A stretch of DNA of 64,000 nucleotides from Tetraselmis striata. Taxonomy: Eukaryota; Chlorophyta; Chlorodendrophyceae; Chlorodendrales; Chlorodendraceae. Position 1 is the first letter of the stretch. Each line of letters opens with the position of its first letter. Of the stretch, positions 22,276 to 56,391 are shown in pieces. The notes beneath the pieces are model-generated. The model was not told the origin of the DNA and made no database searches. It was given only the letters and a program-made list of their open reading frames with translations. The translations under genes were made by a program, and so were the position numbers. The stretch is taken from assembly GCA_006384855.1 (NCBI GenBank), contig VCJN01001046.1:50599-114598 (forward strand). The letters run 5' to 3'.

Positions 22276-22744
22276 TGTTGACGAACACTGGTCGAAGCAG
22301 GTGATCAACTGGTCCACTGAAGTGTAAGTGAGCCCATCTGGCTTATAGGCAAATAGGCCTGATGATAATATATTCGTAATAGTGCAGTATAAATTACGGC
22401 TACTGCGCAGAAATGATGGAATGTACTGGTACTATCAAGTGACATATACTGGACCTGCAGAGCAAGACAGGTGTGAGGCATGTGAAGACATGCCTCATAT
22501 AACACTTTATCAAACACACCCAGATTTCTGACAGGTGTCCGACTGAACCTGAATAGCCTTTTAGATATTGGAACCAGATCAAGAAGCATGAGAAATGGAC
22601 AGATGAGCAGATGGAGCATGCCCCTAGCAAGGGCATTCTGCAGATGAGAATATAATGGGACATTTCTCATCATTTGTAATTACAATATTCAGATCTCCCA
22701 GACTCTGTCCCAACAGCAAGCTAGGAATTCTCCGAACGTCAAGA
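22276..22744 (+). repeat. 5' LTR of Copia-1
   Basis: 469 bp, beginning TGTTGACG and ending CGTCAAGA, a near-perfect terminal inverted pair. It differs from the 3' LTR by a T/C change near 22507 and a C/T change near 22664. Confidence 0.92.
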
Positions 22745-22807: not shown

Positions 22808-25179
22808 TGATTGCCAAGGGTGGCTTTGCACCAGAGTGGCAGGCTCCCGCCCACCTGCGTCACAGCAAGTTTGGCAAGTTTGTGTCCCGCAAGGGCAGCT
22901 TTGCGCATCGGATGCATGGGTCCACCCCGGGCAGCAGTATGTTGCTACACAATGGCGTATATGAGGAGGCACCCATCGACATCAAATGCGTCTCTATGGG
23001 CTTCGATGCCAATGCCGTCGTCTTCCCCGAGGTGTCCGCCGATCTGCGTCGATGTATCATCGGAGCATGTGTGGGCTCAAACGTGGCGCGCTGGCTGATG
23101 GCGGCTATCTCCTCCGCGTCCAAGGACGAGAGCGCTCTTCCAAGCATTCACACCTTCCCCCACAAATGGATCTTCGACTCTGGAGCTACCTCACACATGG
23201 TGGCGCCGTACGAGGACTACTCCGACTATGAGACCATACCGCGCCGATGGATCAGCGGCTTGGGCGCCTACGCTGTGGGTACCGGTACAGTCCATATCAG
23301 CATGCGAGCCGTCAACGGCGATACATCCTGCAGCACCCTGCACAACGTTCTTCATGTGCCCGATCTCGCTTCCCGCACCAATAACGAGGTGCTTCGTCTC
23401 TTCAGTGCGCGGCAGGCGCAGGATGCCAATGCAGCCCTACAGATAGTCATGACAGCGCGCAGCAGCGCCATGCAGATCTCCGATGCCGTAACCATTCCCA
23501 TCGAGAATGACGGGCGCTTATTTGTCCTGCACAGTCACGTGCTCCGTCAGGGACGGCGTCAACGCCATGGTAGTCCGGTGGAAGCTACCACAGCCCTCTC
23601 CGCAACACCCTCTAGCGCGTTACCATCTGACAACATGTTGTGGCATGCACGCCTCGGTCACATCCACGAGTGCGCCATGCACCGAGTTACCCATGGGGGA
23701 CGGAATGCCGGCCTGCGTCATACCAGCCTTCCGTTCTGCAAGTCATGCGCAATCGTCAAATCCACTGTGGCCCCGATACCGCGCATCTGTCATGAGAAAC
23801 CAACTGTGCCATTCTCTCTCGTTGGGAGCGACATCTGGGAGCTGCGCACTCCTTCGCTGCAAGGCCACACGTACTGCTGTGGGTACGTCGACTACGCGAC
23901 ATCCCTGGTGTGCTTGTTCTTCTGCAATTCCCGACAATGTGCTACCGCTACTCTGCGTTCATTCAACACCATGGTGGTAAGCTATGACCATTCAATTGCA
24001 GCATTGCGTCTGGACAACGATACAGCCTTCCGCAGTCAAGCATATGTGTCCGCCTGCGACGCCCTCACCATTCGCCGCACATATGCAGCACCATACAGCC
24101 AGTTCCAGAATGGGCTGATGGAGCGCACCTGGCGCACCCTCAGCCAATGGGCTCGCTGTATGCTGGACTACGCCAGCCTCCAAGACACCTACTGGGAGTT
24201 CGCCATGTCGGTCGCAGCCTACATCCATAACCGCACCTTCCGCCGTGGAGTTCATGGAATTCCACTTCACCTTGTGACTGGCGCCATCCCAGACTTGCGC
24301 CATCTCCGGGTGTTTGGCTGTGATGCCTATGCGCACGTTCCCCGCAGTGCCCGGCACAAGGCTGCCCCTTCCGCCCGCCAAGGTGTCTTCGTTGGATATT
24401 ACACAGACTCGCCGGCATGGCTTGTGTACTTTCCCGCCACGCGCTCTGTTGTGGCCAGTCGATCCGTCACCTTCGATGAAACTGATCGCTCTACGCCCTG
24501 CACCCTGGAGCACCCCGATTCATGGCCGTCTGCAGCCCCTCAGGAGGGGATGACTACAGAGTCAGGAGGGGCCACAGCCGCCAAGACAGGAGGGGCTGTG
24601 CCCCGAGCAATATGCCCTACCTGCTCGGCATCAACCCATGACCGGGGACTGACTTTCGGAAGAGAATGCGAGTTTCGTCTTCATGGTTACAGCAATGCTA
24701 ACTTTCCAACAACGTATCCCAGTCAGTGCAAGTCGACCAGCGGTTCTGTATTCTTTCTTGCAGAAGCAGCCGTCAGCTACCTATCCAAGCTTCAGCCATT
24801 GGTAGCACTCTCGACAGCAGAGGCAGAATATATAGCGCTTTGTGTCACAGCGCAGGAGGCAATGTTCTTGAGGCAGATGCTATCAGAACTGGGATTCAGG
24901 AAGGACGGCGCCACAGCAATCGGAGAGGACAACCAGGCATGTATTACAATCGCCACCAACGACGTGACCTCAGCCCGGACCAAGCACCTGGACATCCGAC
25001 TTCACTTCGTGCGAGATGCACAACGCTCAAAGAAAATCAAGGTGTACTATGTGCCCACTGCTGACATGCTGGCTGACACCTTCACGAAGCCACTTGCGTC
25101 CCGCCAGCAGTTTGAGGCCTTAAACTCGCGCATCATGAACTACAATATTGCACCTGCAACCAGTGAGGAGGGGTGTTGA
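22801..25179 (+). CDS. Copia-1 polyprotein: methyltransferase remnant - protease - integrase - RNase H (RT deleted)
   Basis: 792 aa in one frame. Residues about 55-105 (IKCVSMGFDANAVVFPEVSA, VGSNVARWLMAAI) match the C-terminal block of the cytosine methyltransferase in Copia-2. The aspartic protease follows (WIFDSGATSHM, Asp126). The GAG-pre-integrase zinc site (WHARLGHIHE, then CKSCAIVKS) leads into the integrase core with Asp344, Asp405 and Glu441 in DD35E spacing. After the integrase C-terminal block (FGCDAYAHVPRSARHKAAPS) the frame jumps, through the right arm of the 63-bp inverted repeat, to RNase H (LHGYSNANFPTT, ALSTAEAEYIAL, KHLDIRLHFVRD, MLADTFTKPL). The RT fingers and palm, including the YVDD box, are missing. 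The stop lies within the 3' LTR. The intact frame despite deletions suggests formation in, and recent spread from, a working lineage. Confidence 0.92.
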   Translation: MNLIAKGGFAPEWQAPAHLRHSKFGKFVSRKGSFAHRMHGSTPGSSMLLHNGVYEEAPIDIKCVSMGFDANAVVFPEVSADLRRCIIGACVGSNVARWLMAAISSASKDESALPSIHTFPHKWIFDSGATSHMVAPYEDYSDYETIPRRWISGLGAYAVGTGTVHISMRAVNGDTSCSTLHNVLHVPDLASRTNNEVLRLFSARQAQDANAALQIVMTARSSAMQISDAVTIPIENDGRLFVLHSHVLRQGRRQRHGSPVEATTALSATPSSALPSDNMLWHARLGHIHECAMHRVTHGGRNAGLRHTSLPFCKSCAIVKSTVAPIPRICHEKPTVPFSLVGSDIWELRTPSLQGHTYCCGYVDYATSLVCLFFCNSRQCATATLRSFNTMVVSYDHSIAALRLDNDTAFRSQAYVSACDALTIRRTYAAPYSQFQNGLMERTWRTLSQWARCMLDYASLQDTYWEFAMSVAAYIHNRTFRRGVHGIPLHLVTGAIPDLRHLRVFGCDAYAHVPRSARHKAAPSARQGVFVGYYTDSPAWLVYFPATRSVVASRSVTFDETDRSTPCTLEHPDSWPSAAPQEGMTTESGGATAAKTGGAVPRAICPTCSASTHDRGLTFGRECEFRLHGYSNANFPTTYPSQCKSTSGSVFFLAEAAVSYLSKLQPLVALSTAEAEYIALCVTAQEAMFLRQMLSELGFRKDGATAIGEDNQACITIATNDVTSARTKHLDIRLHFVRDAQRSKKIKVYYVPTADMLADTFTKPLASRQQFEALNSRIMNYNIAPATSEEGC
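24517..24579. repeat. Right arm of the perfect 63-bp inverted repeat in Copia-1
   Basis: It lies in frame at the integrase/RNase H junction where the RT should be. It encodes DSWPSAAPQEGMTTESGGAT in the ORF frame. Confidence 0.95.
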
Positions 25180-25642
25180 CGAACACTGGTCGAAGCAGGT
25201 GATCAACTGGTCCACTGAAGTGTAAGTGAGCCCATCTGGCTTATAGGCAAATAGGCCTGATGATAATATATTCGTAATAGTGCAGTATAAATTACGGCTA
25301 CTGCGCAGAAATGATGGAATGTACTGGTACTATCAAGTGACATATACTGGACCTGCAGAGCAAGACAGGTGTGAGGCATGTGAAGACATGCCTCATATAA
25401 CACTTCATCAAACACACCCAGATTTCTGACAGGTGTCCGACTGAACCTGAATAGCCTTTTAGATATTGGAACCAGATCAAGAAGCATGAGAAATGGACAG
25501 ATGAGCAGATGGAGCATGCCCCTAGCAAGGGCATTCTGCAGATGAGAATATAATGGGACATTTTTCATCATTTGTAATTACAATATTCAGATCTCCCAGA
25601 CTCTGTCCCAACAGCAAGCTAGGAATTCTCCGAACGTCAAGA
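25174..25642 (+). repeat. 3' LTR of Copia-1
   Basis: 469 bp, almost identical to the 5' LTR, followed by the CGCCG duplication. Confidence 0.92.
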
Positions 25643-26890: not shown

Positions 26891-26892
26891 AT

Positions 26893-35915: not shown

Positions 35916-36443
35916 ATGGACACCGACAGATATGAGGAGCAACAAGACGCCGGGGCCAGCACTTTTCTGGCCGCGCTGAGGGGTGGCAGAGTGCAACAGC
36001 CCGCGATCCACACGGTCGCAAGTTTAAAAAAATCGCGGGCGCCCAACTCCCACCAGCAACCCGCCGCCACATACGCGTACTCCAACGCCCATCCCACCTT
36101 CTCCTAGCCGGCCTCCCAGCCGGCACGGACGATGCCGCCCACGTGGCCCTACTATGCGGCGACCTGGTGGCCCAACATCAAGCGATGAATGAAGAGTCGC
36201 GCGGCCGGACTGTGACGAATCTGATCCGTACCCTCAACCCCAAAATCGGAGTCCATATCCTACCAACATACGTCCGAGTGGCGACTCGCCCCCCCCCCCC
36301 CCCCCCCCCCCCCCCAAAACGCACCGCCGCTGATCCAACCTGATCAAGTGGAACCATGCTCCCCACTACCACTGGGTCCGTCATCTTGCGAGTGGCCCGC
36401 CGAGAAACGGCCGCTAGCGTTTTGCGGACCCAATGGACATGAG
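35916..36443 (+). pseudogene. First ORF region of LINE-like copy B
   Basis: From ATG 35916 it reads ASTFLAALRGGRVQQPAIHT, like copy C. A frameshift at the A run near 36025 moves the frame. It continues as DDAAHVALLCGDLVAQHQAM and NPKIGVHILPTYVRVATR, then hits a C run of about 26 at 36290-36315. Later in-frame stops at about 36341 and 36441 separate it from the next ORF (GSVILRVARRETAASVLRTQ lies between them). Copy C is intact in the first block, which supports the reading. The function is unknown. Confidence 0.45.
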
Positions 36444-36490
36444 AGGGCACAACGATCCTCGACCGCCATGGCCGCCTCTGTTCTTCCCGC

Positions 36491-37573: not shown

Positions 37574-38850
37574 CTACACTCTCACCCTGCAGTTGACCCC
37601 CTACCACCACAGCATCATTAGTGGCACCCGCGCAATTGACAGAACCGAGTAGTGGCGTACGACAGTCTCGACAGCGAGCGGGAAGATCAAGGCCGGGCCA
37701 ACTCATCAGTAACCGGCCGAGGTGCGACCTGCGGGCACAATGCCAACACCATCACTAGCCGGCCCAACCCAAGTGACACTACCAGCGACTCCAACAGCCA
37801 AGGCCGAAACTCAGGTCCACGGCACTCACCCCCGGGGTTCGAGCACATAATGCATAGGCGAGGAGCGGTCGCTATTATTGCCGTCGCAGCCATCGACCAG
37901 CGCCGAACAGCAACGGAGCGCGCCCCCGGAGCAGCACACCCAGCCCATGCACCTACAGCCACAGCCCCGCCAGCGGCAACCACCATGAGCGGAGTGCATG
38001 CGGAAGACGAGGACGAGCTCGAACTGAACTACGAGGAGAACGACAGCACCATGGATGTGGACACCGCCTAGCGCGGAGCAGCGGAGGCACCATGTCTGGC
38101 TGACATTACCCTCAACTCCCCCCAACGCTCAATAGCGCAACGCACATTCCGCGAAGGCACACCTGATGGCACAACACATCGACTGGTCAAGCTTCATCAC
38201 CTCACCACCGCAACCACAGAGCTGCTCGCCCAATCCTCCCCAACCAGTCAGCCTGCACTCACGGCCGAAACGAACTAGCCAGACTCACAGCGGAGTCACA
38301 TCGACTGCGTAAACCACAGCGCCACTCGATCCAGCTCAAACACCACCCCCGCCAGCCCCTCCCAACATGCAAGGGCAAGGCAGCCGCATCTGCCAAGCAC
38401 AAGAAGAAGCAGCCCATGGGTCATAGCCGCTCAGGCGGCGCCACCCGCAACCGCAGCAAGAGCTAGCCGCGCCTCTGGCACTCGCGACTCCGACAGCGAA
38501 TGGGAAACGGACGACGAAGCAGCCCAACCACCTGGCAGCTCGCATTAGTAACTGCCGCGCGATCCACCGCAGCGACAAGCATGCCGGCTGACTCAAGAAC
38601 ACCGGCCACTACTAATCCATGTGACCGGTGCAGCTACTAAGATATCACACAATCATTACAGCACCGCCCCAAACACGGGACATCCCCATCACTGATTACC
38701 ACAACCCCGCCACATCCAACAATACTTACTCTAACGAAGGAGGGCATCGCGCCCCCCACTAATCCTACTAGCCGGCTCAGCGGTGGATAAATACTGAGCA
38801 ACACTTCACTATTCCGGTCAGCCCCCTTCCCCCATCTCACCTTATAGTAG
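37574..38850. other. 3' part of LINE-like copy B without a supported gene
   Basis: The only notable frame is 37652-38071, which begins with GTG, has no ATG at its head, and ends in an acidic stretch (EDEDELELNYEENDSTMD). 38072-38850 is Pro/Ala/Arg-biased in all frames. No domain was recognised. Confidence 0.4.
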
Positions 38851-39131
38851 ATTTAGGCGGGAAGCTTTGGCTGCCTAAGCTTACCTGTTGAGCTCTGAAT
38901 GGGATAGGCCTGACTTAAGTAGGGACAACAGAGGGGCGCTGGTGTCCTAGCTAAAGCCCGCTGGAGGGAGGAGGGGCTTGGACACACAAGAGGACGGCCG
39001 GTAGCTTGAGCTGCAATTACACATAGTGTTCCTTACCATGGATAGAGATAGCATGCTCTAAGAACAGCTCAGTATGAGCCAGTGGACGCAGCAGATTAGC
39101 AATTGTAACCAATTTCAATTTCAATTTCAAT

Positions 39132-39965
39132 TGCACCATGCGCCTCGGTCGCCTCCGCGGCCCGCGCACGCAGCTGGTCGGGGCCAACTCGCCCCGCCCT
39201 TTGCACAACAAGCATCGGCTGCTTTCGCAGCCCCAGACACTTAGCTAGACGGCGCCAACGGGCCGCCACTGCATCATGTGTCCCGGTCGCCTCCGCGGCC
39301 GGGGAACGCAAATGGTCGGCGACAATGCTAGGCCGCCGCTGCACGCTGTGCCTCTGTGGCTGTCGCAGCCTCGGGCACGCAGCTGGTCGGCGCCATTAGG
39401 CCGCCATTGCACCATGTGCCCTGGCCATTTTCGCGGCCCGGGCACACAGCAGGTCGATGCCATCAGGCCGGCCCTGCGTCACGCACGCAGCGGATCAGAG
39501 CCAACGGGCCGTCACTGCACCCTGCGCCTCGGTCGCTTCCGCGGCATGCGCACGCAACTGGTCGGCGCCAAGAACGGGCCGTCACTGCGCCATGTGCCCT
39601 GGTCGCCTTCGCGGCCCGCGTACGTAGTTGGTCGGCGCCGTCAAGCCCTCCTTGCACCATTTGCCCCGGTCACCTCCGCAGATCGGACACGCGGCTGGCC
39701 GGCCCCATCGCGCCGCCACCGCATCCTGCGCCCCGGCGACTTGCACGGCATGGGCACGCAATAGGTCGGCGCCAACGGTCCGCCGCTGCGCCTTGTGTGC
39801 CCCGGTCGCTTTCGCAGCTCGGGCGCGCAGCTGGCCGGCGGCATCGCGCCGCCACCGCACATCGTGCCCATGCTGCTTTCGCAGCCCCCCGGACACCGTC
39901 CTAGCTGCTGGTCGACACCATCATCAAGCCGTCGCTGTTTGGAGCTGGCTACAAGCTACATCGTC
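39132..39965. repeat. 67-bp minisatellite, right block (about 12 units)
   Basis: The same unit as 35166-35697 (CTCCGCGGCC, GCACGCAG..GGTCGGCGCC, CTGCACCATG), somewhat more diverged. Together with the left block it would be a single array of roughly 1.36 kb without copy B. Confidence 0.92.
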
Positions 39966-40620
39966 TGCCCCCCGCCCACCCTTCGCACGCCCCGCCGTGC
40001 GACGGTAGCCATCCGTTTTTCTCTTGGGCGGTCGCTACTCTCCCGCCCGGCCGGCGCCCTGCGGCCGGCGCCCAAGACATGTTGGCAATGCTATTCATGC
40101 GCCCCCAGCCTTATTCCTTGAAATGTTTTTTCTACCAGTAGCGACTAGTTGGGGTTTCCTTTCTCTCGTTGTCTACTCAATTGGCGCGGTACGGCACAAA
40201 TACAGTGCTATTATGCCCGGCGGTGCTATTATGTCGTACCGCCCGAGGGGCTGCATCGGCCTCGCAACGCCTCGAGGAGGAGCGGTATCGACATTGCACT
40301 CCCGCACGGCACCTCCGCGTGCGGTTCCCGACGCAGCCATCCCGGGTGGCGCTACCCCCGGATGCTGCTTCGTCGTGTGCTTAAAAGCACCAGGAGGCTT
40401 ATTGCCTGTCCCCCCCTTTCTTTGTCGCGGCGCACCCACCATGGGGTCGCACCGCGACGGCCGCAGCCTTCCTCCCCTCACTTTGTTCAACTTCACGCGG
40501 GTCTGCCTCTCTAGCTCTAGCCCCTCCAAAAAGTCTTGTAATTATTATGCCAAAGCACCTTTTCGGCAATGTGCCTGCGCCCCGCTTCCTTGCTTGAAAT
40601 ATGCGCGCGCTGAAGTTTCA
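39966..40620. repeat. Dispersed repeat family R, copy 2 (complete-looking)
   Basis: It aligns with copy 1 from TTCGCACGCCCCGCCGTGCG through GGTACGGCACAAATAC and TCCCGCACGGCACCTCCGCG to AAGCACCTTTTCGGCAATGT. ORFs of up to 233 codons cross it, but the frame is not kept in copy 1. It follows the minisatellite directly. Confidence 0.75.
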
Positions 40621-41767: not shown

Positions 41768-44700
41768 ATGGCGCTCATGACCATGCCTCGGCGGCTGCTT
41801 CTTACGTTCGCCCTAGCGGCGGTACTGCTGGCTACAAGCGCCGTCGGGAGCACGGAGGCGCTGCCTCGCAAGCCGCGTGAGCGCAGCCTGGCCGAGGGGC
41901 TGCCGTCCGGCGCTAGCAAGCCGGGTGCGACAAGTAACCACTGGATCGACAGCCCCGTCACCTTCTCCGCGGGTGGCCCCCCAATCTACGGGTGCGCACC
42001 CATGACTCGCCTATCCAGCACCACCCCCCTCCCCGTGCAATACGCTGTCGAAGCGCAGTCGACGTCGTCGATGTGTGTGTCGACGCCTTGTGAAAGCCAA
42101 AAAATACGTCAAGCGAAATCAGAAGCTCCGCGAGTCCGGCGGAACTTCCGTATCGCAACCGTAGGAACGATGCAATTGAGAGCCGCCCGCCCCTTTTCCC
42201 CTTGTGCACAGGCTGATGCCAAGCGGACCCAAGGGTCGGAAAGGTGGAGTGCACGCAATGTCAGGGGGAAACTCTGATGCCTCGAATGCGGGAGTACCGT
42301 GGGTGGTGGTGCTGCACAAGCGCCGGGAGTGCAGTCCTGCGCGTCTCTGCGCGGAGGCACAGGCGGAGGATGCCGGCCGGTTCAGCGGCAACTGCTTCGA
42401 GAGCTACCGCCGGACAATCAATGGCATGGCAGTCACAGTGAGTACGCGGGGCACATTGAGCAGGGGGGGGGTCGCTACGTGTGGGTTCGTGGAAATGCGC
42501 ATGGGCTCGCTGGTGGCTCAGCTCAGGCTTTGTGTCTTGCCCTGCGGCATGGCAGATGGACGTGGCCAACCTTGCGGCATTCGTAGAGGCGGCCAAGGAG
42601 TGCGTGCAGGAGGTGTGGCGTGATGGCACTGTGACTGTGCAGATGAGCCAGCGCTCGCCGCCATGGGGTCTTGATCGGATCGACCAGCGCTCGCTACCGC
42701 TTTCCAGCCTGTACTCCTACACAACAGACGGCACAGGCGTGCATGCCTACATTATTGACACGGTAAGTTGCGGCCGGGAAATAACGTCCCTTGCATTGCT
42801 GCCTTGTCCACATCTTGCCTGCCTGATATCCAAATATAGGATTTCAACGGTTTCCTTGGCAGGAAAATCCGTAGTAGTTGTACTACTGCCTCCTATCATG
42901 CCTCACATGCTGACTTCCTGTCCCTTTTTGCTCTGCGTGACTCCGCCTATAGGGCATCCAGGAGAACCACAACCAGTTTAAGTACAGTGACGGGCGGCCC
43001 GGCACCCGCGTGCGGAGCACCTACTCTGGCTTTGGCGATGAAAACTCAACCGACTGCCATGGCCATGGCACGCACGTTGCCGCCACACTGGGCGGGCTCA
43101 CCTTTGGCGTCGCCAAAAACGTCACTCTGCATGCGGTGCGAGGCTGTCCTGCTACAAATGACAACTAGTTCATCCTATTATCTTGGTTACAATATATATT
43201 TGCCTGGATTAAGAATGCCACTTGCGAGAGACATGTTCCCTTTTGACATTGCTGATGACTGCTGCAGCATTGGGTCGCATCGCTGAGCTAATCTCGCCGC
43301 TTTCTCTGATGCCTGCCCCGCAGGTGCGCGTGCTGGACTGCCAAGGAAACGCTCAGTACAGCCGTGTGATTCGCGCGCTGGATGACCTGGCTGGAACGCA
43401 CGAGTCGCCAGCTGTGGCTGTGCTCAGCCTTGGCGGCGAGCCGTACAATGCCCTGGACCTGGCAGTGCAGGGTCTTGTCGATGCTGGCATCAGCGTGTCC
43501 GTGGCCGCGGGCAATGACAACCGCGACGCCTGCATGCAAAGCCCGGCACGCGTGTCGAGCGTGATCACCGTGGCCGCCACCTCCTCATCCGACACCATCT
43601 ACTGGAACTCCAACTTTGGCGAGTGCGTCGACATTTTCGCGCCAGGCGTCAATATCTTGTCTGCCGTCCACACCAGCCCAACAGCGACCGGTTACATGAC
43701 TGGGACCTCAATGGCGGTGCCCTTCGTCGCTGGGGCTGCGGCGCTGTTCTTGGAGCGCAGCCCGGAAGCGCTGCCGTTCGTGGTGATGAATGCGCTGGTG
43801 TCCAGTGGTACTCGCGGAGAGGTCGTCGACACCAAGGGCGCGCCCAACATTTTGCTGTCCACCAACATCTTCTCGCCTGTTGAGTTTAGCCCGCCCGAGT
43901 TTCGCCTCAGCGATGATACCCCCAATACACCCTTTCGTGTCGGCGTAGCCCTAGCCAAGCGGCCGACGTCGCGCGTTGTGCTACTTCTCGACGATCTGTC
44001 TCCGGAGCAGGGCACCGTCACGGTGTCGCGCCTCGACTTTTCGCCTGGTGAGTGGAATAGGCCGCAGTACTTTGAGTTCGAGCCATCGGACGCCAACCCT
44101 CGCGGGCAGGGCTTTAACCTGGTGTTCCAGCTGCGCAGCGACGACCCCGAGTTTGACGACTTGGAGAGCTACTTCCAAGTGACGGATGATCGACAGAAGC
44201 TGGGCGAGGACACCGAATACCCGCTGGAGGTGACCAGCCTGCCCTTCGTCGACACCCGCAGCACGACGACCTTCACGCACCGCTTCAACGAGGACTGCAG
44301 CGAGTGGGGTGACAGCGGCAATGCGCCGGACGTGGTGTACCGCTACCGTCCAATTGCCGACGTGGTGGTCGAAATTTCGCTGTGCGACAGTGACTACGAC
44401 ACTAAGGTCTTTGTGCTCACCGGCCGGCGGCGCAAGCTATTTGCTTGCAACGACGACAGCTGTGGCTACAAGAGCCGCATACAGCTGCGTCTGGAGGCCG
44501 GCGAGGAATATTTCATCGTCGTCGACGGCTACGATGGCGACTCGGGGCAGTATGTCATCAAGATAAATGACGTACCGGGGCTGGACCCTCGCGACCTGCC
44601 ACCCGGAGAGGTGGACGAGTCGGTGGCCGCTGTTCCGGGCAGGGCTCCAGGCGAATCGACCTCGCCACCGCCTACACCCACGAGTGTCGAGCTGTCCAGC

Positions 44701-47700
44701 TTGACTTTCACCAACTGCGAGCTGGCCCCCCCGTTCTCGCCGGCAGTGACGTCATACGCCTGCACCACCCCTCCCGGCTCGCCAGAGACCACCGTCACAT
44801 ACGTCGCGGCAAGCGGCGACGCGGCCGTGGACGTCGGAATAGCGAAGCTGGAGGACGCCCCCGCTGACCGCTTGATAACGCAGGACGACACCCGCCTGCA
44901 AGGGGTCTTCGCCGCAGTCGACTCGGCAGTTTCCGCGACCGGATTCCAGCGGCTTCGTCTGGAGGAGGGACGCAACCGGGTGACGCTATCGGTGGAGTCG
45001 TCCGACGGTCGCAGCCGCACCTACGAGGTGGTCGTTACGTTGCGCAGCGAGCCGCGCGAGGCGCTGCTGCAGAGCCTCGTGTTCGCGGAGGGCGGCCCGT
45101 CCGGCCCGCCCCTCTCCCTGTTCCCAGAGTTTCGTTTCGACGTGCCCGATTATCGCGCCGAGGTGGGCGAGCGTGCATCCGCGCTGTGGATCATCGCCAG
45201 CACGCTGAGCACCAACCCGGCGATCACGGTGAGCGTCGCCGGCTCGCCTCTGCCATTCTTGGCGCCAGGAGGCGCTCGCGGACTCGCTGTCCAGTTAGCG
45301 CCCGAGCAGGACACGGTATCGGTATTGGTCGTTGCCGGAGATGGCCTGACGTCGACGACGTACAGCCTTTCGCTCCGCCGTCGCCCCGCTGGCGCCAACC
45401 CGCTCCCGAGCCGCGCGGCCGTCGACTGCGCCGTCGGCGAGTGGGCCACGTGGAGCGAGTGCAGCGTCAAGTGCGGCGGCGGTGGCACGCAGATCCGCGA
45501 GCGGAGCGTGATGCGGCAGCCCGCCAACGCGGGCGCACCCTGCCCTGCCCTTGTCGAGAAGCGCGCCTGCGGGGACAGCGAGTGCGTGGTCGACTGCGCG
45601 GTGCGTTATAGACGGCCTTCCTCCTTTCCTTTCATGGCATGAACAGCACATGTTCGGACACAAGAAGCATGGCGTTCAACACCCGTGCTTGCAGTGCTGC
45701 TGCCCCGAGTATCGTCTCACATGTTTTAATGTCGTTCTGGCATTGATATATTTTGTATTGCTGCTATGGCAGGTGAGCCCATGGGGCGAGTGGGGGCAGT
45801 GCAGCGTGCAGTGCGGCACCGGCATCCAGACACGCAGCCGTTACGTGCTAGAAGTGCCCAGTGGGGGCGGCGCGCCCTGCAGCGAGCTCACGCAGCAGCG
45901 CACCTGCCGCGTGCCGCTGGAGGAATGCTTCACCGACGTGGACTGCCAGCTGGGCGAGTGGGGCGCATGGAGCGATTGCAGCGCCAACTGCGGCGGTGGC
46001 ACACAGCGCCGCAACCGCCCGGTGGTCTCGCCGGCGCTGGGGGATGGCGCGCCCTGCAGCGTAACCGAGGAGATCCAACCCTGCAATACGCAGCCCTGCT
46101 CGGCTGAATGCCAGGTGACGGACTGGGGACGCTGGGGGCGCTGCAACGCCTCCTGCGGCCCGGGCACGCAGAATCGGCAGCGCGCTATCACCCGGCTTCC
46201 CAGCGACCCCGACGGCCCTGGCTGCCCGCACCTCAGCGAGGAGCGCGTGTGCAACTCGCCCGACTGCGCCCCAGGCCAGGAGCCCCGCCCCATTGTGCAG
46301 ACCCCACACACCGACAGCGGCAACTACCAGACAGAGCCCAAGACGGTGCGGGCGGGTGGTGCTGCCTGGCAGCATGAATGTTTGCCACATGCTGGACGCG
46401 CAAGGATTCATCTTACAAATCTCCTTAGCCGCCATGTACACTGGTTGTTTGTTTGCGGCGATGAAATTGTCTATGTGCCGGTGGGCAGGTGGAGTGGAGC
46501 CTAGATAGCATCGAGGATGAGCAGGCGGCAATCCCACCGGGCGGCGCACCCCCTGTGGCGCGCCACCGCTGGGTCATCTACGGCTTTGGACCTTGCAGCG
46601 CGACGTGCGGCGGCGGCGTGCAGGACCGCATCGTGCAGTGCGCCAAGATCGAGGCGGACGGCTGGACGCTTGCCGACCCGCGCGCGTGTGTGGTGGACGG
46701 AGCCGGGGAGTCGCCACCGGCGCAGCGTGCGTGCAACGTGGCACCCTGCGATCAGCCGGTGGTCACGCCGGGCGAGTGGGGCGCCTGCAACGCTGCATGC
46801 GGCGGCGGCGTCCAGGAGCGGCCTGTCATGTGCCGCGCCACTGCAGGCGCTCTTCTGCCCCGCAGCAGCTGCCTGCAGGTGTGTAGCCTCTCGTCGTTAG
46901 TGCATCCCCCGCCCCAACGCTGTCCTTGGTCTGTGAACAACACGCGTTCAAAAGTCAGTTCTTCTGGTAGTGCAATCACAGAGACTCTTGACATATACAT
47001 GTATGGAGCTATTCACGACAGCATGATTTTTCCGTGTGATATGATGTTGATGAGAGACAGAGATACGGGAAAGCCTGTGCTGTGGTGATTTTTCTCAAGG
47101 CATGGGTGCACTTTTAGCTCATGTTTACTTATGTATGATATGATAGAGTGACATTGTCTGGAACTCATAGCACAATATATACATAGCGATAAAATCCATA
47201 TAGCCAAAGGATGTATGTTCCACTTCCAGTCAAAATTAGGAAATACTTACAGAACTGCAGTATTCATTCCACAATTCGCTTGCGCTCTGCGAAAGGGTTT
47301 TGATCATAAGGCGAATTAATTGCCATGAATGAAGAATAATGATTATCATGCCAGAATGAGTATAATGCTGTTCTGAGTATTGCCCAACTCGACACAGGCA
47401 CACATGGATGCCCCGAGTAGCCAAGTGTGCGCAGAGGAGGCATGCCCCTCCACGGAGCCGCATTTGGAGTTGGGAGAGTGGAAGCCGTGCTCCGCGACCT
47501 GCAATGGCCGCTCGACACGTGAGGCTACATGTGTATCGCCGGACGGCCTCTCCGCGGAGGGATGCGACTCCACGGATGTGGTACTGGAGCGGACATGTGG
47601 AGCGCCGACCTGCGAGAGAGCCGTTTGGCGTGTCGGGCCCTGGAGCTCGTGCAGCTCGACCTGCGGTGTCGACGGCGTGATGACGCGCTCGGTGGATTGC

Positions 47701-49920
47701 CGTATGCTCGGCAGCGATGAGACGGTGGAGACGGCGGCGTGCGAGACGGCGGCGCTGAGGCCCTCCGACACCGCGGCCTGTGGCACCGAGCTGTGCGGCG
47801 ACTGCGGCGCGGACGGCGACTGCAGTGGCAGCGGGACCTGCGATGCCGACACCCGCACCTGCGTCTGCATGCCCGGCTTCATGGGTCCTCACTGTGAGGT
47901 GCCGCCGAGCTGCTTCAGCGGCGTGCTCGACGGCGACGGCGCTTGCTGCCCTGGCGCCGTAGACGTCGAGGGGAGCTGTTGCGCACCTGGCGCCTCGCTC
48001 GACAGTTCAGGAGCCTGCTGCACCAGCGGCGTGCTCGACGCCTGCGGCGTCTGTGATGGCCCCGCGCTGTCGGTCGACGCCGGCGGAGCCTGCTGCGCAG
48101 GCCCGCTGGACGCGTCAGGGCTGTGCTGCCCGGCGAGCGGGTCTTCTCTGGACGAGTGCGGCGTCTGCGGCGGGGACGGCACCAGTTGCGTCACCGACCT
48201 GGACCTGGTGTTCGGACTTCCGGGCGTGGACAATCTCGAGGCAATGCTGGCCGAACCTGCGGCCTCAGCGCGACTCGCCTCAGAGCTGGAGACGTTTCTG
48301 GCAGACCGCCTGCTGCCAACCCGCGACGGCGGCCCCGCCCCAGGGCGTGTCACCCTCCAGCAGATGTACAGCTTTCGACCTGGCTCCACCTCCGGCCTCG
48401 ACGCCCCTGCGGGCCTTTCAGCACAGTCGGCCGGTCCAATATCTGTGTCACCGCTCGGTAGCCCGGTCGGCGGCGGCAATGATAACAGTACTGTCCACCT
48501 GTCGAGGAAAAAGCCCCGCCGTCGACTTGCCGAAGTGACTGCGTCAGCGGTGGTTCTGCCGTCGCACACGGAGCCGATGGTGCCAGTCGCCGCTGCCTGG
48601 CTGGACGGGCCCGACGGCCTGCCGAACTTCCTGTCTGCACGCCTGCGTCTGTCGGGCCAGCGCGAGCTCGACGGCACCGCCGTCACCGCCGCCGCCGCCC
48701 TGGCGGAGTTGCGCCAAGAGGTGGCTACGTCCCCCACCGATGCGGTGCTGAGGCGGCTCGCGCTGCTGGGTGTCGTCTACGTTGAGCGCCGCGGCGTGTG
48801 CGGTAACGGACTATGCGAGGTTGGCGAGCGCCCGGCGGGTATCGCCACCACGCTGGTCGGCTACGAGCTGGAGTCGTGTCACGTCGACTGCAGCCAGCCG
48901 CTGCGGCAGTGCCCAGCGCCGGCGGACGCGCCGGACGGGGCACCTTGCGGCGGCACCGGCCGCTGCCTGCACGCCTCGGGCGTCTGCGCGTGCTTTCCGG
49001 GCTACACCGGCGACGACTGCGGGCAGTGCGAGCGCGGCTTCTACCGTGTCGGCCGCGGCCGCTGCACGCCCAGCAGCGAGACGCTAGCGTCGGTAGTGAT
49101 GCGTACGGTGTCCCCAGCCGGCGGCTCGACCTCCAGCACCGTGTTCGCCGTCAGCATCTCGCTTGTCATCGTCGTCGTGTGCACCGCCGCCATTGCCGGC
49201 GCCTTCGCCTACCTGCGCTTTTACAAGCGGCGCGCGGCGGAGCGCTCTGCAGGAGAGCCGGAGGTCAAGCCCGCCAATGGCGCATCCGGCCTCGGTGAGG
49301 AGGAAAACTACTTGTCAGGAAACCAGCACATGCGGCTCAAGGACCAGGATGTGGTCGACCCTAGCATCATCGAGTGCTGCCTCGCCACAGACGTGCGCGC
49401 GCTGGAGCGCCTCTCGGCGCTGCACCCCCCGCAGCCCTCGCCCGGGCGGCGCTCGCCGCTCTGCGAGGCGGTTGTCACGCACGAGTACCACTCGGCCAGC
49501 CCGCGTCCGCAGGAGCTGCGCCGGCAGACGGGGCCACAGGCGCACCCAACACTGGACACGACGGCCTCCAGCCTGGCGTGGGAGTCAGCGAGCGAGTCGC
49601 CGCGCACAGCGCCGCCGTCCATGATCATGGCGGCTTCGCCGGCAGCACGGCCCGCAGCGGGCAGCACCGCAGTCATGCGCGAATCATCAGGCCAGGAGAC
49701 CTTCTCCAACATGTTTTGGTTTCCGTCTAGCCTGGGCAACCGGCCGCACCCGCGGCACGAGCTGCAGTACGGGCCGGTGGCGACCGACTCGCCCACTGGC
49801 TCTCAGCGCGCCGCGCATTTTTCTCCGCGCCGCTCCGCTGCCGGCGTCAACCCCCGTGTGCTGATGGAACGCCTCGGCTCCCCTGGCGGTGAGTCCTCCG
49901 GCTGTCAGTCCCCAGTGTGA
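41768..49920 (+). CDS. Membrane-anchored subtilisin-like serine protease with eight TSP1 repeats, eight exons
   Basis: Exons: 41768-41876, 42265-42437, 42556-42762, 42953-43135, 43324-45600, 45773-46345, 46489-46878 and 47398-49920; phases agree and give about 2144 aa. A signal peptide ([20 protein letters not shown]) comes first. An inhibitor-I9-like propeptide follows ([21 protein letters not shown]). The S8 catalytic domain has Asp162 (AYIIDTG), His201 ([10 protein letters not shown]), Asn288 (VAAGNDN) and Ser353 ([11 protein letters not shown]). After it come a beta-rich stretch, a PPC-like domain (about 541-642), and two cadherin-like beta-sandwiches (about 677-913). Eight TSP1 repeats follow (first at 925-981, [14 protein letters not shown]), then EGF-like modules (about 1439-1475 and 1808-1862) around a CGVCGGDG-type Cys-rich block. 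A transmembrane helix (about 1886-1914) and a tail of about 230 residues, rich in Ser/Pro/Arg, end the protein. It should be an exported, autoprocessed ectoenzyme acting on matrix or surface proteins. The exon 1/2 junction is the least certain. Confidence 0.9.
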
Positions 49921-51390
49921 TCTGGTGGAAGCCGCCGCAGGATGGGGAATGCAAGCGGGACTTGCTTGCCTGGTGTACGCGCACGGCAGAGCCGCACAGC
50001 GCCAACTGTCGCTGATGACACTGAGTAAGAGGGGTGAGTTGCTGTACCTATGAGAAGCGCGGAGCCGAGGCCTCCATGGCGGTGATGCGTGCCGTGGGCG
50101 GCCAGACTATCTGGACACACTGGATCAGTGAATGCGACGATCAATCCAGTGCCTCCTCCTTCTCTCCGCCGTCCCTACACTTTAGTAAGCTGCGCTTATC
50201 GAGGATGGGCGCACATGCAGCAGAAAGTATCCATGCGATCTTGTGTACTATGATGGTCCTACGGATAGTCCTAGTGAAATATCACCGCAGAAGTGCGGGT
50301 TGTGCTGCGGGGAAATTGTAAGCAGGCTGTGCCGCTTCTGCATGTACTTGCATCACGATCAGGGGTGCAAAAGGCTGCAAGGTCTACAACGGCATGCATA
50401 TTGACCATCTGCGTTGCTGGTCTTTTCTGCCCCGACGCATCTTTACGGGCAGCGTCAGTTCACAACCAGACAATGATATATACGCAGCGCAGCACAGCAG
50501 CGCGCAAATACCACTGCCGCAACCAGCAGTAATAGTACACAACCGCAGCGGGCATTGACAGCGCATCACGCGCGTGGCGGCAGACCGTCACAGTGCGGTG
50601 TCGTCATGTTGATGGAATAATACAGCTCCGAATGAAAAACCGTCACTTCCACAGTGATCCACAAGAATATTCAATGATGAGTCGCAGACTCGCATTTATG
50701 CCTCTAAGTATGCACCTACACATGAGAGGGAGTGGAGTGGGGGGAGGGGGTCTCACAAAAAACCTATAAATCAACCATGCACCATTTCGATTCCCAGCTA
50801 CAGGAGCTACAGGGAGCAGCGGCTCAGCAACTTGTCGGGCCATGCGGTGCATGTAGTAGAGCTGCTTTTCACAGAGCGGCAAGCCATGCGCGATAACATC
50901 CATGTTTTTGGAGTTTGTGCAGGTTGCCTTAACGATAAGCAGCCGCTGAGGGTGGCTTAGAATCTGTTTGAGTTCTCAGGGCTCAATAGAGCCCTTATTA
51001 CAGCCCTTATCAGCAGCTACACCCACTGGCCATGGGCTCAGCCGGGGCTGCAGCTGGAGCACCTTGGCACTGCTGTATTCTAGTATGTAAAGCCTGTTGA
51101 GCCGCCATTCTGGCACCTCCTGTCTCTAAACTATTGGTTGGGGTGATGCCTAGAGTTGCATGACCATCTGAGGTCATTCTAGAGTGGGCATGTTCGCCAC
51201 AAGCCTGATGATGGCTCCCTAGGAGCTGAGCTCTGCTCCTTTTTACATTGTACCATATATACAATGCCTAAGTGCTAGTGCCAAATATCGGCACACCACA
51301 TCCAGCTTTACGTGGGCCAGCGCAGTCTGCCTAACACTGCAGCTGATGGTCTTACAGTCAGATCAATAACATACCAGTGTAATCTTTTGG
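49921..51390. other. Region between the subtilase gene and Copia-2
   Basis: It begins with the 3' UTR of the subtilase gene; a TGTAA near 50317 resembles the algal polyadenylation signal, but this is weak. 50900-51390 probably contains the 3' LTR of the minus-strand Copia-2 element, because the stop codon of Copia-1 lies at the start of its LTR. No matching 5' copy was found near 56.4-57 kb, so no LTR is called. Confidence 0.45.
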
Positions 51391-51393
51391 TCC

Positions 51394-52600
51394 TCAGCAC
51401 CCCTCCTCACTGGTTGCTGCAGCTTGCATATCATTCATGACCTCAGCGCTGAGTACCTCAAATTGAGATCGTGGCAGTGCTTTGGTAAACATGTCCGCAA
51501 GCATCTCGTGAGTGGGCACATAGTGGATGTGGACGGCACCTGCTTCATGGGCGTCCCGCACGACTTGAAGTTGGATGTCCAGATGCCTGGGACGCGCTGA
51601 CGTCACATCCGTGGTGGCGATGACTATGCATGCCTGTCCTCACCGACGGGAGTGGGTGCTGTGCCGGAAGCCCAGTTCTTCTAGCATCTGGCGCTGGAAC
51701 ACTGCCTCTTGCACTGTCAAGCAGAGAGCGATGTACTCTGCCTCTGCTGTGGACAAGGCCACCAGTGCCTGTAATTTCGACAGGGACCTGATTGCTCCTC
51801 CGCAAAGGAAGAAAACGTACCCAGTAGTAGATTTACACTGACTGGGTTAGGTCGTTGGGAAGTTGGCGTCACTGTATCCATGTAGTGTCAGCTTGTCGTC
51901 ACCACCAAAGGTGATTCCACGGCTGTGTGTCCCCTCGACGTACCTCACAGTGTCGTGCGTCCTCGATGTGTGCCTTGGTCGGGGTAGAAATGAATCAGCA
52001 CATTCGGGCGACTGACTCAGCGATATCTGGCCAAGCGGCGACTGCGGCGTAGAGCAGAGCTCCCACAAGGCTGCGGTAGGTGCTGACCTCAGTGTCGGTG
52101 AACGGTTCGGATTCACGGGGGTCGTTGGCCACCCTGAGAACCTTGGCTGCTCAGCACTGCTCCATTCCAAATCGAGCCAGCAGGTCATGGATGTACTTTG
52201 ACAGATGAATGATGATGGTACGCGCTGCTCGCTCTCGCTCAACCTTGACTCCTAATAGCCATGAGCAGCTGCCAAGGTCCTTGATGCCAAACCGGGCTGC
52301 CATGGACTCCATGGCGTAGAGGAAGGCGCAGTCAATGTGTTTGTTCCATGTGCAGGTCGAGGTAAGCAGCAATGGAGAAGATGACTCGGAGGGTAGTAAA
52401 CCTCACCATCGGTGCGAAGGGTTCCGTAAAGTCGAGGCCGTGCACTTGCGTGAAGCCTTTGGCGCAGAGCCTGGCTTTCTCTTGTGAAACAGTCCCATCC
52501 GCATTGTGTTTGTTTTGTACACCCACTTGGACTAAACGACTCTGCGACCACCTCTAGGTTTGGGTACCAACACCCACGTACCACGTCTGACAAGCGACGT
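51394..52600 (-). pseudogene. Copia-2 RT (partial) and RNase H
   Basis: RT fragments: KARLCAKGFTQVHGLDFTEP and PMVRFTTLRVIFSIAAYLDL. Then, after a deletion that removes the YVDD region, MESMAARFGIKDLGSCSWLL. RNase H fragments follow in shifted frames: GGDDKLTLHGYSDANFPTT and RPRHLDIQLQVVRDAHEAGA, then MLADMFTKALPRSQFEVL to the stop. The frames change at least three times. Confidence 0.88.
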
Positions 52601-53396
52601 GTATTCCTGTCTCATGGACTTCCATTCAGGTGCTTTGTGACAATTGATCGCCTCCTCAAATGTAATAGGGTCACCAAGCGCCTCGCCCGCCACGAATGCC
52701 TAGTCGGCTGGGTCAAAGTTGCAGCTGAAGCACAGTAGTGCCAGCTCATCCTGCACGGGGCACTCGCCAGTCATCACTGCTACTTCATTATGACTGAGTC
52801 TGCTACAAGCTTTCATCCGGGTTGTACACCCTGCGGTGTCTGTTGCACATTCCTCGGGTGTCCTGTCGGGTGTGAGTTGCAGCAACTGGCGTTGGCGCGG
52901 TTGATGAAACGGTGCAGTCACAGGTACATTGCTGGGTCTTAGTGGCTGATTGGGGACGAGCGGCGCGCGAAGAAGTGGTGTCGGGGCAGTGGGGTGATAA
53001 TAGGAGGCTGAGCTCCTGGCATTGGGGGAGGGGGAGTGATTTTTCTGCTCGGAGGCGGGGGTGTTGCTTCGCGAGGCGCGGTACACTCTGAGGACCTGGG
53101 CGTCGGGGGTAAATCATTGTCTTCAGGAATACCATTGTTGTTGTTGTCGCTGCTGTCGCTGTCGTTGTCGCTGTGGATACGGTTGCAGCTCCGTGCAGAG
53201 CCCGACGCAAGGGGGGGCGGGTCGATGGGCTGCGGCGCTGCGCATGTGGGGCAGCGGGGGTAGGGGCTTCTCCCTCCTGAGGTGGATGCTTCTCCTGAGG
53301 CTGATGGTGGTCTCATCTCCTCCCGAGCGGCAGCAGGCCACTCATCTGGCACATCCGTCGGCACGACAAGACCATGGGGCGTCTCATCGAAGGCGA

Positions 53397-54969
53397 CTAC
53401 CGATCGTCTGAGCAGGCGATGACAATGCGCGTGTCAGCCATGTAGACTAGCCACGCTGGGGAGTCGGGCGAGTATCCAACGAAGATACCCTTGCGGGCTG
53501 AGTGAGCGAGCTTGCGCCAATTCTCTCGGGGTGTGTGGACATAGGCTGGACACCCAAATACTCGCAAGTAGGTCAGGTCGGGCGCGGTGCTGGTGACTTT
53601 CCGCAGCGGGGTGTCCGCAACACCTCGTCGCATAATGCGGTTGTGGATGTGGACTGCGACCATCATACCAAACTCCCAGTGTGAGTCTGCGAAAGCGGCA
53701 TGGGTAAGCATGCAGCGCGCCCAGGTACCGAGATTGCGCCACGAGTGCTCAAAGAGGCCATTCTGAAACTGGCTGTACGGGGCTGCATATGTGCGACGCA
53801 CTTGCAAGTCGTTGCGGGCGGCAATGTATGATGCGCTCCAGAACGCGGTGTCATTGTCCAGTCGTAGGGCCTGTACAGTGATTCCGAGGTTGACGACCAT
53901 TGTGTTAGTGAAGACGCGGAGACAGGTAACTGTTGTAGAGCGATAGCGCGCGAAGTACAGGCACGCCATGGATGAGGCGTAGTCGAAGGCGCCACAGCAG
54001 TGGGTATTGCCTTGCAGTGATGGAGCTCTGGTCCCCCAGAAATCCCAGCCCACCAGCGAGAAGGGGACAGTGGGTTTGTCGTGGCATCGGCGCGGCATCG
54101 GTAGTGCGGTGGTTGACTTGACTAGTGCACACGCCTCACAAAACGATAAATTGATGTGCTGGAGTTGACCATAGCGGGGGATGTCGTGGTTGTCAGGGCT
54201 GCATCCATTGCCCGCTCATGGAGATGACCGAGACGAGCGTGCCACAACATTTTGATATGTTCCTTTGGTAGTGAGCGCACTGCCAGCAGGCCTGTGGAGA
54301 TGGATGTGTCGGTGGGCGGCGATGAATAAGCAGCAATGATTGCGGTGTTCAGCATAATGAGCTGTCCATTGACCTCAATGGGTGCAGATACGGTGTCGGG
54401 TAGCTGCAGGACACTGCGCTGAGCTGTCATCAGCACCTTGAAATCCTGAGCTGCCCGAGCACTGAACAACCGGAGTACGTGTCCATTTGATTTCGATGCC
54501 AGGTCGGGCCGGGACGTGTAGGCAGTTGCGGACCATATAAGACACAGTGCGTATATCCTCGGTCTGCATAGTTAAGGTGGATTGTGCCCACACCCACTGC
54601 GTAGCCGCCAAGCCCACTGATCCATCGTTGGGCTATAGTTCGGTAATCATCGGCGTTGGCGTAGCCTGCGAAGCAGACTGCTATGTGAGACGTGGCACCG
54701 CTGCCAAAAGCCCATTGGTCAGGAAAGCAGTGGATGCTAGGCAGGGCTGTTTCATCCTTGCAAGATGTCACTGAGATAGCTAGAGCCAACCAGCGAGCAA
54801 CGTTGGCATCAATACACGCTCCAAGTGCACGTCGTAGGTCCTCGGATATACCCGGGAGGTTGAGCGTGGAGTGATCAAAGCCAATGCTTTCGCAGCGGAC
54901 GTCGCAATTGGGGTCTGTCCAGACTCCATCAAGGTTCAGCATTCCGTGGAATGGAGTTGGGCCGTGCAT
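53397..54969 (-). pseudogene. Copia-2 protease, GAG-pre-integrase and integrase
   Basis: 54969-54430 carries the methyltransferase C-terminal block and then a protease-like site in which FGSGATSH replaces the usual F-DSG-ATSH, so the catalytic Asp is lost. 54469-54122 holds WHARLGHLHERAM of the GAG-pre-integrase zinc site. 54098-53397 is a 233-codon integrase frame with the first Asp region (VGWDFWG), RLDNDTAF and NGLFEHSWRN (DDE), ending in GYSPDSPAWLVY. It is about as similar to Copia-1 as a distinct subfamily would be. Confidence 0.88.
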
Positions 54970-55771
54970 TCTGTATACCCAGGTGCCCTTGTGGGACAGG
55001 AGTTTCGGAAGGACGCTGACTTTCAGATGCGGGGGAGCCGCCCATGCAGGCGAGAAGTCAGCATGTCATCCAGTGTCACTGGTGGTCTCACACATCGCTG
55101 ACAGTGTCATCGCAGAGCATCGAGAATGTGAATGTTGGTCCAGACTGTAATGTCACGCTGTGCGGTAAAGCCCATTTCGTGCACTCATGCGAGCATGGGC
55201 TGCCCAACGGCCGCGCGGATCTGCTGTGATTGAGCCGCGCCGGTGACATTTTCCACCACATTGTTGGCGCTGGATCTCTCAAATGAGTATAGTGGTTACA
55301 TAGAATGCATGTGCTCGGTTGTCTCGCATGCCTAGACCGAGGCCCGCAACAGAGAAGGGTTGACACTGTGGGGAGCTGACCAACATGTCGATAGTTGGCA
55401 GGGACTTGAATTCCTTAGCCGAGAGTTGGTTGATATTTTGTGATATGGGAGGCGGTCAAACGCATTGTCCACGGCCACACGTGGCAGGCTGTGAGAAATT
55501 TTTTGCGTTGCAGAGTACGTAGCTCTGACTGAGCTGCAACTGCAATTGCACGGTCATTCTCTACCAGTGTCACCATATTGAAACGATGCCCCAATGAGCA
55601 CGGCTCATCAAGGATGGCGAAGGCTGCCCCGCTGCAGAGGCCAACGTAGTGAATAGGCCGTGACTTGCTGAAGGCTGTGCTGTTGGGCTTCAGGTGTTGA
55701 ATCTCTGCCAGTGGGGCAATGATGTCATCAATGTCACGCTCTCGCTGTTGGCATGCAGCCCGTGCAAACAA
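54772..55771 (-). pseudogene. Retrotransposon-borne cytosine-5 DNA methyltransferase (decayed)
   Basis: Motif I and the cofactor region: PIHYVGLCSGAAFAILDEP and NMVTLVENDRAIAVAAQSEL (the VEND step corresponds to the acidic residue that contacts S-adenosylmethionine ribose). Motif IV with the catalytic cysteine: IDMLVSSPQCQPFSVAGLGL, at about 55390-55330. Motif VI: ANNVVENVTGA, at about 55255. A target-recognition-length interval follows with stops. The C-terminal block is VRCESIGFDHSTLNLPGI, then LGACIDANVARWLALAI, at about 54900-54772, comparable to the ReceRlqGFp and GNaVp-pva motifs. The order and spacing are those of a complete C5 methyltransferase of about 330 aa. At least two frameshifts and three stops inactivate this copy. 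The enzyme would methylate cytosine in DNA using S-adenosylmethionine. Confidence 0.85.
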
Positions 55772-56391
55772 TTGCTCTGCAGCGTCAGTGTAGGTGCACC
55801 ATCAATTTGGACGGCGGCGAGCTCGGCGGTGTTCATGCGGTGCGCGTCGTCGCCAGCGTCGCTTGGCGTCGCGCGGTCAATCAGCCCATTGTCGTGGTGG
55901 CGAGCTTCATTGTGGCGTAATTCTGCGAGCGCTGTCCGTGCACGCCTCATCAGGTAGGCACCTCTCAAGGAATCATCATCATAGTCCGGATCGCTGCTGT
56001 CATCAGTGGAGTCGGGAGCGAGAGATGGTATGTCACGGTCGATATCTCCCTCGGCGTGTTCCGTGTGCGTGGAACGCTCGTGCTCATCCTCATCTGGATC
56101 ATTTGATGTCCCTGAGTCGGACTCGAGATCATGCATGTCTCCATCACTGTCTGTCTGGTTTGTGTAGGTATTGCTGACATTCATCAGGTTGCCTAAGCGT
56201 GGAGTGCTGCGCAACCGTCTGGAGTGCGTCGACAGTGGATGCCGTGCCGAGCGCGGGATGTTCCCGGCGGATGCTAAGCGCATTGAACCGCCCCTCGGCT
56301 GTCTTGCGAGCCGATGAGAGCCATAGAAGTCGTAGTCTTGAGGCGTGCTCTGAAGCGCTCCCGCAGCCGCAATTGCAGCTGATCTCTCCAT
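55690..56391 (-). pseudogene. Copia-2 N-terminal ORF in the gag position
   Basis: 233 codons from ATG 56391. The N-terminus is basic, then a strongly acidic Asp/Ser/Glu stretch (DLESDSGTSNDPDEDEHERS) and a helical segment (YLMRRARTALAELRHNEARH). No CCHC zinc knuckle is seen. It overlaps the methyltransferase frame by about 80 bases in another frame; one indel would fuse them. Confidence 0.6.

Follow-up and report, generated by a model that had tools for sequence, protein, structure and literature searches.

Several groups of Ty1/Copia retrotransposons in the green alga Tetraselmis striata encode a predicted cytosine-5 methyltransferase within the Gag-Pol polyprotein

The window analysed here, a stretch of 64,000 nucleotides from contig VCJN01001046.1 of the chlorophyte Tetraselmis striata (assembly GCA_006384855.1), contains two Ty1/Copia retrotransposons, Copia-1 on the plus strand and the decayed Copia-2 on the minus strand (Table 1). 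Mutually similar repeat blocks surround the Copia-1 insertion (20300-28600), with another set downstream at 35000-40000, and 43213-49920 contains fragments of host genes whose domains are of the subtilase, cadherin-like, thrombospondin type 1 and EGF kinds. Two adjacent frames at 9372-11918 carry a reverse transcriptase (RVT_1), an RNase H and a weak match to a Dam-type adenine methyltransferase (E 0.0025, below the cut-off), and may represent a DIRS-like element that includes a Dam domain; a related but diverged second copy lies at 14882-15946.

Table 1. Features of the two Copia elements in the window (MTase, methyltransferase; RT, reverse transcriptase; LTR, long terminal repeat; o/e, observed/expected)
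Feature	Position	Strand	Remarks
Copia-1 5' LTR, 469 bp	22276..22744	+	2 mismatches against the 3' LTR; CGCCG directly before
Copia-1 open frame, 802 aa	22771..25176	+	MTase C-terminus (residues 11-117), protease, GAG-pre-integrase, integrase, SH3, RNase H
Copia-1 3' LTR	25174..25642	+	followed by CGCCG, a 5-bp target-site duplication
Copia-2 3' LTR start and adjoining CpG-poor stretch	50714..51399	-	50930-51399 CpG o/e 0.27; mapped from LTR start only
Copia-2, decayed element	51394..56391	-	from RNase H end / 3' LTR start through the acidic ORF preceding the MTase
Copia-2 RNase H region	51397..51930	-	C-terminal ATSEEGC and stop, like Copia-1; stop codon falls within LTR start
Copia-2 RT pieces	52169..52729	-	
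Copia-2 integrase with SH3-like domain	53400..54215	-	PF00665, PF25597
Copia-2 linker and protease region	54514..54762	-	WAFGSGATSHI; immediately downstream of MTase
Copia-2 cytosine-5 MTase	about 54763..55717	-	motifs I, II, IV, VI, VIII, IX-X, in order; frame changes and stops
Acidic ORF, 233 aa	55690..56391	-	possible spacer in the Gag-MTase interval; short similarity to spacer of protein P0006, E 0.08

The initial annotation had proposed that Copia-2 encodes a cytosine-5 (C5) DNA methyltransferase. The strings from which this was read are present on the minus strand, with VGLCSGAAF...LVENDRA in frame 1, SPQCQPFS in frame 2, VVENV in frame 3 and ANVARWLALAI again in frame 2 (frames numbered in order of mention), and downstream of them follow Copia protease, GAG-pre-integrase and integrase domains and then pieces of RT and RNase H. 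The Copia-2 MTase scores 203 bits (tblastn) against an annotated T. striata MTase, compared with a maximum of 31.6 among 200 shuffled queries, and a frame-aware alignment of its MTase and protease with the annotated protein P0006 extends over 357 residues, 172 of them identical, and is interrupted by four frame changes and two stops. Identity in the MTase amounts to 55/91 aligned residues in the motif blocks versus 81/225 outside them. A profile built from six element MTases, Copia-2 excluded, was scanned against 1055 unjoined single-frame pieces of the window at E up to 10, and matched only the Copia-1 frame and three pieces of Copia-2: 55801-55418 (3.3e-22, profile positions 1-72 of 326), 55455-55282 (5.6e-18, positions 89-143) and 55065-54433 (7.5e-43, positions 226-326). 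The match is thus significant for both ends of the MTase and for motif IV, and an artefact of hand-joined frames is ruled out by these unjoined pieces; positions 144-225, which separate motif VI from the C-terminal part, are matched by no single Copia-2 piece within the same E limit. The general C5 MTase family PF00145 gives weaker values on Copia-2 (hand-joined read-through 8.1e-7, partly joined piece 2.1e-6) and does not match the first MTase piece alone.

The order of the motifs and their membership in a Copia element hold good, but Copia-2 itself is dead; its reading frame is broken, its catalytic motif is PQC where relatives have PPC, and no 5' LTR was found. The open reading frame that the initial annotation had placed in the gag position is a spacer at best, its similarity to a spacer being marginal; Copia-2 has no Gag match at E 0.01 or among the matches listed in a relaxed search.

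Taken alone, the broken Copia-2 without a 5' LTR would be compatible with a chance neighbourhood, in which a Copia element had inserted into or beside a host or viral MTase gene. This reading is refuted by Copia-1, in which the MTase C-terminus (3.8e-55 against the six-MTase profile) is fused in frame to the protease between near-identical LTRs, so that the MTase belongs to the element, and by several genomic groups with a full MTase inside one LTR-flanked open frame (see below); together these leave chance proximity with practically no probability. The Copia-1 frame lacks Gag, the N-terminal part of the MTase and RT, and over 2838 bp it matches the genomic element L047 at 99.7% identity; L047 has Gag and a complete MTase and lacks RT. 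Copia-1 is a recently inserted, internally deleted copy. L047, L048 (contigs C428 and C2406) and Copia-1 are all RT-less with near-identical or identical LTRs, and have moved recently, presumably by means of the enzymes of other copies.

Relatives of these elements were sought in the T. striata genome (224,097,584 bases, 2903 contigs). Protein P0006 gave at least 54 matches (30 of 1718 first-look candidates scored), at least 11 of which are stop-free over residues 1-1170, from Gag through the MTase into the protease, and five of these 11 sit in open frames of 2295-2299 aa. The Copia-2 integrase gave at least 142 matches (142 of 737 candidates scored), one of them within a 2483-aa frame; the matches listed include nine further loci resembling Copia-2 (79-89% identity) as well as a partial locus (82%). 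For PF00145 there are at least 123 matches genome-wide (123 of 337 candidates scored), all of those listed exceeding the cut-off, many in frames of 1000-2162 aa and one in a frame of 3505 aa.

Twenty regions, picked from the P0006 and Copia-2 integrase matches and therefore not a random sample, were fetched and compared. An MTase, whole or as a remnant, is present in 18 of them, and eight have Gag, MTase, protease, integrase, RT and RNase H in a single uninterrupted frame of 2147-2483 aa. L047 and L048 have all of these domains except RT in one 1805-aa frame, and the two regions of group D (L058 and L059) have frames of 1561 and 1560 aa from which the MTase is absent, the unfiltered element-MTase profile finding nothing better than E 0.28 in them. 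Paired LTRs flank 16 of the 20 regions (one further repeat is doubtful, and none was found in three); over the part fetched, the LTRs are identical in seven of the 18 MTase-bearing regions and likewise in L058. Target-site duplications of 5 bp accompany 9 of 12 LTR pairs, some of which may be due to chance as shifts of up to 4 bases per side were allowed. In six element groups the MTase occupies the same position, between Gag and protease. In group G, represented by contig C444 (L063-L065; PF00145 2.8e-9, RVT_2 8.1e-38), the MTase is likewise found here and shares 32% identity with the group B enzyme (1.5e-43). Other PF00145 frames with the C444 pattern are putatively G-like elements, assigned by their matched range alone, C444 being the one contig of this type that was fetched. 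The domain order protease-integrase-RT-RNase H and the RVT_2-type RT are those of Ty1/Copia elements.

These data show that several Ty1/Copia groups in T. striata encode a C5 MTase within a single Gag-Pol polyprotein, between Gag and protease. Intact relatives with the order MTase-protease-integrase-RT, which the initial annotation had named as supporting evidence, thus exist in one open frame, and full-length relatives lacking the segment, which it had regarded as a sign of an unrelated insertion, belong only to a separate, more distant Copia group (L058 and L059). As that group is abundant and its 1561-aa frames are intact, Copia elements can succeed in T. striata without an MTase.

The same arrangement is partly visible in annotated proteins. 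P0005-P0007 each combine a zinc knuckle, PF00145 and RVT_2, and lack integrase parts that the genomic frames possess, probably because these parts were taken for introns. The protein database yielded six distinct matches, all T. striata gene models, whose clusters comprise 24 sequences by listed member counts. Residues 10-210 of P0001, the Copia-1 segment, retrieve three T. striata proteins, and P0004 has long stretches identical to Copia-1. The MTase region of P0004 retrieves five proteins including the query, all from T. striata and three of them outside the Copia-1-segment set, in a search that scored 7992 candidates of about 700-2230 aa and would miss short stand-alone relatives. The Copia-2 read-through has no match in the protein database at E 10.

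Comparison of subgroups A and A2, between which synonymous change is unsaturated, shows that the MTase is under purifying selection, with dN/dS of 0.18 (0.10-0.31) and 0.22 (0.13-0.35); the corresponding values are 0.23 and 0.33 for protease-integrase and 0.09 and 0.16 for Gag. Between groups, where synonymous change is at or near saturation, identity is 44-52% for the MTase, 25-34% for Gag and 61-71% for RT, and an alignment of the A, A2, B, C and G MTases shows PPC, ENV and the motif VIII arginine retained in all of them. The MTase C-termini of Copia-1 and Copia-2 are identical at 48 of 99 residues, with dN/dS of 0.17 (0.12-0.44) near saturation. Constraint is less clear within subgroups, where four pairs with few changes give ratios of 0.77, 0.68, 0.26 and 0.43. 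In the A2 pair, nine nonsynonymous against four synonymous changes suggest that constraint may be relaxed in RT-less copies. This last pair, the retention of the MTase in RT-less A2 copies and the success of the MTase-less group D would all suit a passenger gene, captured once and kept by linkage alone, whose product is useless to the element. The low ratios between A and A2 and the persistence of catalytic residues across groups with saturated synonymous change speak against such a passenger, which we consider decidedly unlikely.

The kind of MTase involved is less easily specified. PF00145 scores 40.8-44.9 bits in P0004-P0007 (cut-off 22) and covers only profile positions 36-113 of 324. With motifs named and defined as is usual for C5 MTases, an alignment of five MTases displays motifs IV (PC), VI (ENV), VIII and X in order. 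The canonical motif I for S-adenosylmethionine is FxGxG; the elements depart from it with CAGATFG, CSGATFA or CAGALHS in groups A-C and with a further altered appearance in G. The element MTases form one strongly supported clade (100/100), which joins DNMT3A and two phage MTases in three trees (95/95, 96/88 and 91/85, with 25, 20 and 19 rows) on a long branch with few references, among which the DNMT3A sequence was checked. A search of the element-MTase profile against solved structures places DNMT2 first (1.5e-5), just ahead of HaeIII and HhaI, and lists no DNMT3 chain up to E 10 though the library contains them; an hhalign comparison with DNMT3A gives a probability of 1.9% (E 0.026, 208 columns). 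Because the trees favour DNMT3A and the profile and hhalign comparisons do not, we only tentatively assign the predicted C5 MTase to the DNMT3 side. A structure prediction for the MTase (mean pLDDT 30.5) was discarded.

The leading position of DNMT2, a tRNA methyltransferase, could also mean that the enzyme acts on RNA, either that of the element or its tRNA primer, as was proposed for the SymbioLINE MTase in PMC5890265. All three trees group the element MTases with DNMT3A and the phage enzymes instead of DNMT2, and the CpG depletion of LTRs described below indicates DNA, group G excepted; an RNA target accordingly has a rather small probability.

Among phage records, 520 have matches at E up to 0.1, none of which spans more than 80% of the query. 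Viral contigs scanned with P0001 and with alignment A2 contain no relatives, and the 19 loci found in them with core alignment A4 (29-58% over short stretches) look like ordinary phage-type MTases; on these scans a viral source was rejected. In prokaryote genomes, 12 stretches fit a search pattern, and none is a relative. The T. striata genome also has six stand-alone C5 MTase frames of 325 aa that match PF00145 nearly end to end (contigs C1993, C776, C1647, C2337, C355 and C1455) and three of 341 aa on one contig (C1230), which are separate multi-copy MTases, perhaps those of integrated viruses.

The main branches of the MTase tree and the polymerase tree agree. In the polymerase tree (10 rows, midpoint rooting), G is outermost, followed by D and then by C, F, A, B and E. 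With this root the MTase predates D, which lost it; with the root on D, the MTase was gained once and never lost. Either root implies one acquisition. Very probably a single acquisition preceded the divergence of these groups, and the MTase-less group either lost the MTase or never received it, although independent gains at the same place in the polyprotein would be conceivable from the sequences. The captures in dinoflagellates and charophytes mentioned in the initial annotation are real, with LINE, DIRS and Gypsy backbones (PMC5890265), and the Copia capture is likely to be independent of them.

CpG content of the LTRs was measured in groups A, B, C, D, E and G. Observed/expected ratios are 0.31-0.32 in A (five copies), 0.12-0.19 in B (three copies, two partial), 0.36-0.40 in C (three copies) and 0.09 in E (one copy), and within the window 0.37 in Copia-1 and 0.27 in the Copia-2 3' LTR stretch. 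The LTRs of the MTase-less group D have ratios of 1.14 and 1.19. Internal parts of the elements have ratios of 0.81-0.90 in A, B, C and E as well as in D, and host flanks 1.01 over 24,328 bases; in the window without Copia-1, only 9 of 1270 overlapping 469-base stretches are at or below 0.37, mostly in the Copia-2 LTR stretch. The one element measured in group G has an MTase and an LTR ratio of 0.85, which makes it less likely that carrying an MTase is enough to explain CpG-poor LTRs and indicates that CpG loss is a feature of the A-B-C-E lineage rather than of all MTase carriers. Since A, B, C and E are one lineage, the loss may also be a single event with another cause. It may be due to methylation with deamination, to selection favouring promoters poor in CpG, or to neither of these.

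Overall, we favour the explanation that these Copia groups have a once-acquired MTase embedded in Gag-Pol, which is packaged and methylates the element's own cDNA, and give this whole reading a probability of about 0.72. By analogy with established Copia biology, an MTase in this part of the polyprotein would enter the virus-like particle together with RT and be released by the protease. It would then methylate CpGs of newly made double-stranded cDNA, either ahead of integration or during it, and element copies would arrive already methylated. Such pre-marked copies might gain by resembling host DNA, by being protected from attack or by damping harm to the host. For the steps from carriage in the particle and release to CpG methylation of the cDNA, taken by themselves, we would put the odds slightly short of even. 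The MTase might instead enter the nucleus and change host silencing by acting there on the host's chromatin or on other elements; some 85 residues ahead of motif I is a basic stretch (SARRHRNRRSARRLRKR) that could serve as a nuclear signal. The Gag-Pol placement, which suggests packaging with RT, makes this nuclear role unlikely. A more extended form of the self-methylation reading would comprise a further independent C5 MTase capture by a core-chlorophyte Copia element, packaging and self-methylated cDNA, and LTR promoters emptied of CpGs over time in one lineage; we regard it as doubtful but worth stating. If it is true, CpG-emptied LTR promoters could be methylated and yet stay expressible, and the MTase-less Copia group with CpG-normal LTRs provides a natural control in the same genome.

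DNA methylation often serves hosts to silence jumping genes, and here the predicted enzyme for it is part of the element's own protein. The presence of intact, apparently young copies together with an MTase-less Copia group in one alga makes the question of why transposons carry a silencing mark testable. MTase-bearing retrotransposons as such are already known; what is new here is the Copia backbone, the place in the polyprotein, the host lineage and the internal control. MTase capture, described before for LINE, DIRS and Gypsy backbones, now extends to Copia elements and to a chlorophyte host. Among the papers listed in the literature searches, including PMC5890265, PMC9998398, PMC12344493 and PMC10120064 as far as their open text goes (with subscription papers, supplements and repeat databases outside the search), none gives an account of DNMT-bearing elements in Tetraselmis. 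What PMC9998398 reports for Tetraselmis is transcripts of DNMT5 and DNMT6 rather than elements. One sentence in the main text of PMC12344493, which has no mention of Tetraselmis, puts some DNMT3 members in LTR Copia and DIRS elements and cites the 2018 paper (PMC5890265) for streptophytes and dinoflagellates. This clause may be a slip, because the LTR element of the cited paper is Gypsy, or may reflect data in its supplements.

The traits described by de Mendoza et al. (2018), namely an in-frame DNMT within the coding region of the element, multiple copies and purifying selection, are all found in T. striata Copia. PMC5890265 describes DNMTs in LINE and DIRS elements of Symbiodinium and in Gypsy elements of Klebsormidium, together with abundant Symbiodinium Copia elements that have no DNMT domain. 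DIRS elements with a Dam-type adenine MTase, described as known in the same paper, likewise carry a methyltransferase on a retrotransposon, but both enzyme and element are unrelated to T. striata Copia. SymbioLINE-Dnmt resembles the Copia elements as a multi-copy retrotransposon with a C5 MTase for which CG depletion is reported, and differs in being non-LTR, with an MTase in a separate ORF that belongs to an orphan DNMT clade. SymbioDIRS-Dnmt3 shares a DNMT within the polyprotein, of the DNMT3 clade there and on the DNMT3 side by tree here, whereas its backbone is that of a tyrosine-recombinase DIRS element. cDNA methylation has been proposed for these dinoflagellate DIRS elements, and their MTase methylates CGs de novo in yeast (PMC5890265). 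Compared by its description in PMC5890265, KnitGypsy-Dnmt3 of Klebsormidium nitens is, like T. striata Copia, an LTR element with a DNMT in its polyprotein and purifying selection on the MTase; it is a Gypsy element of a streptophyte with the DNMT in Pol, whereas T. striata harbours a Copia element of a chlorophyte with the MTase in the interval between Gag and protease.
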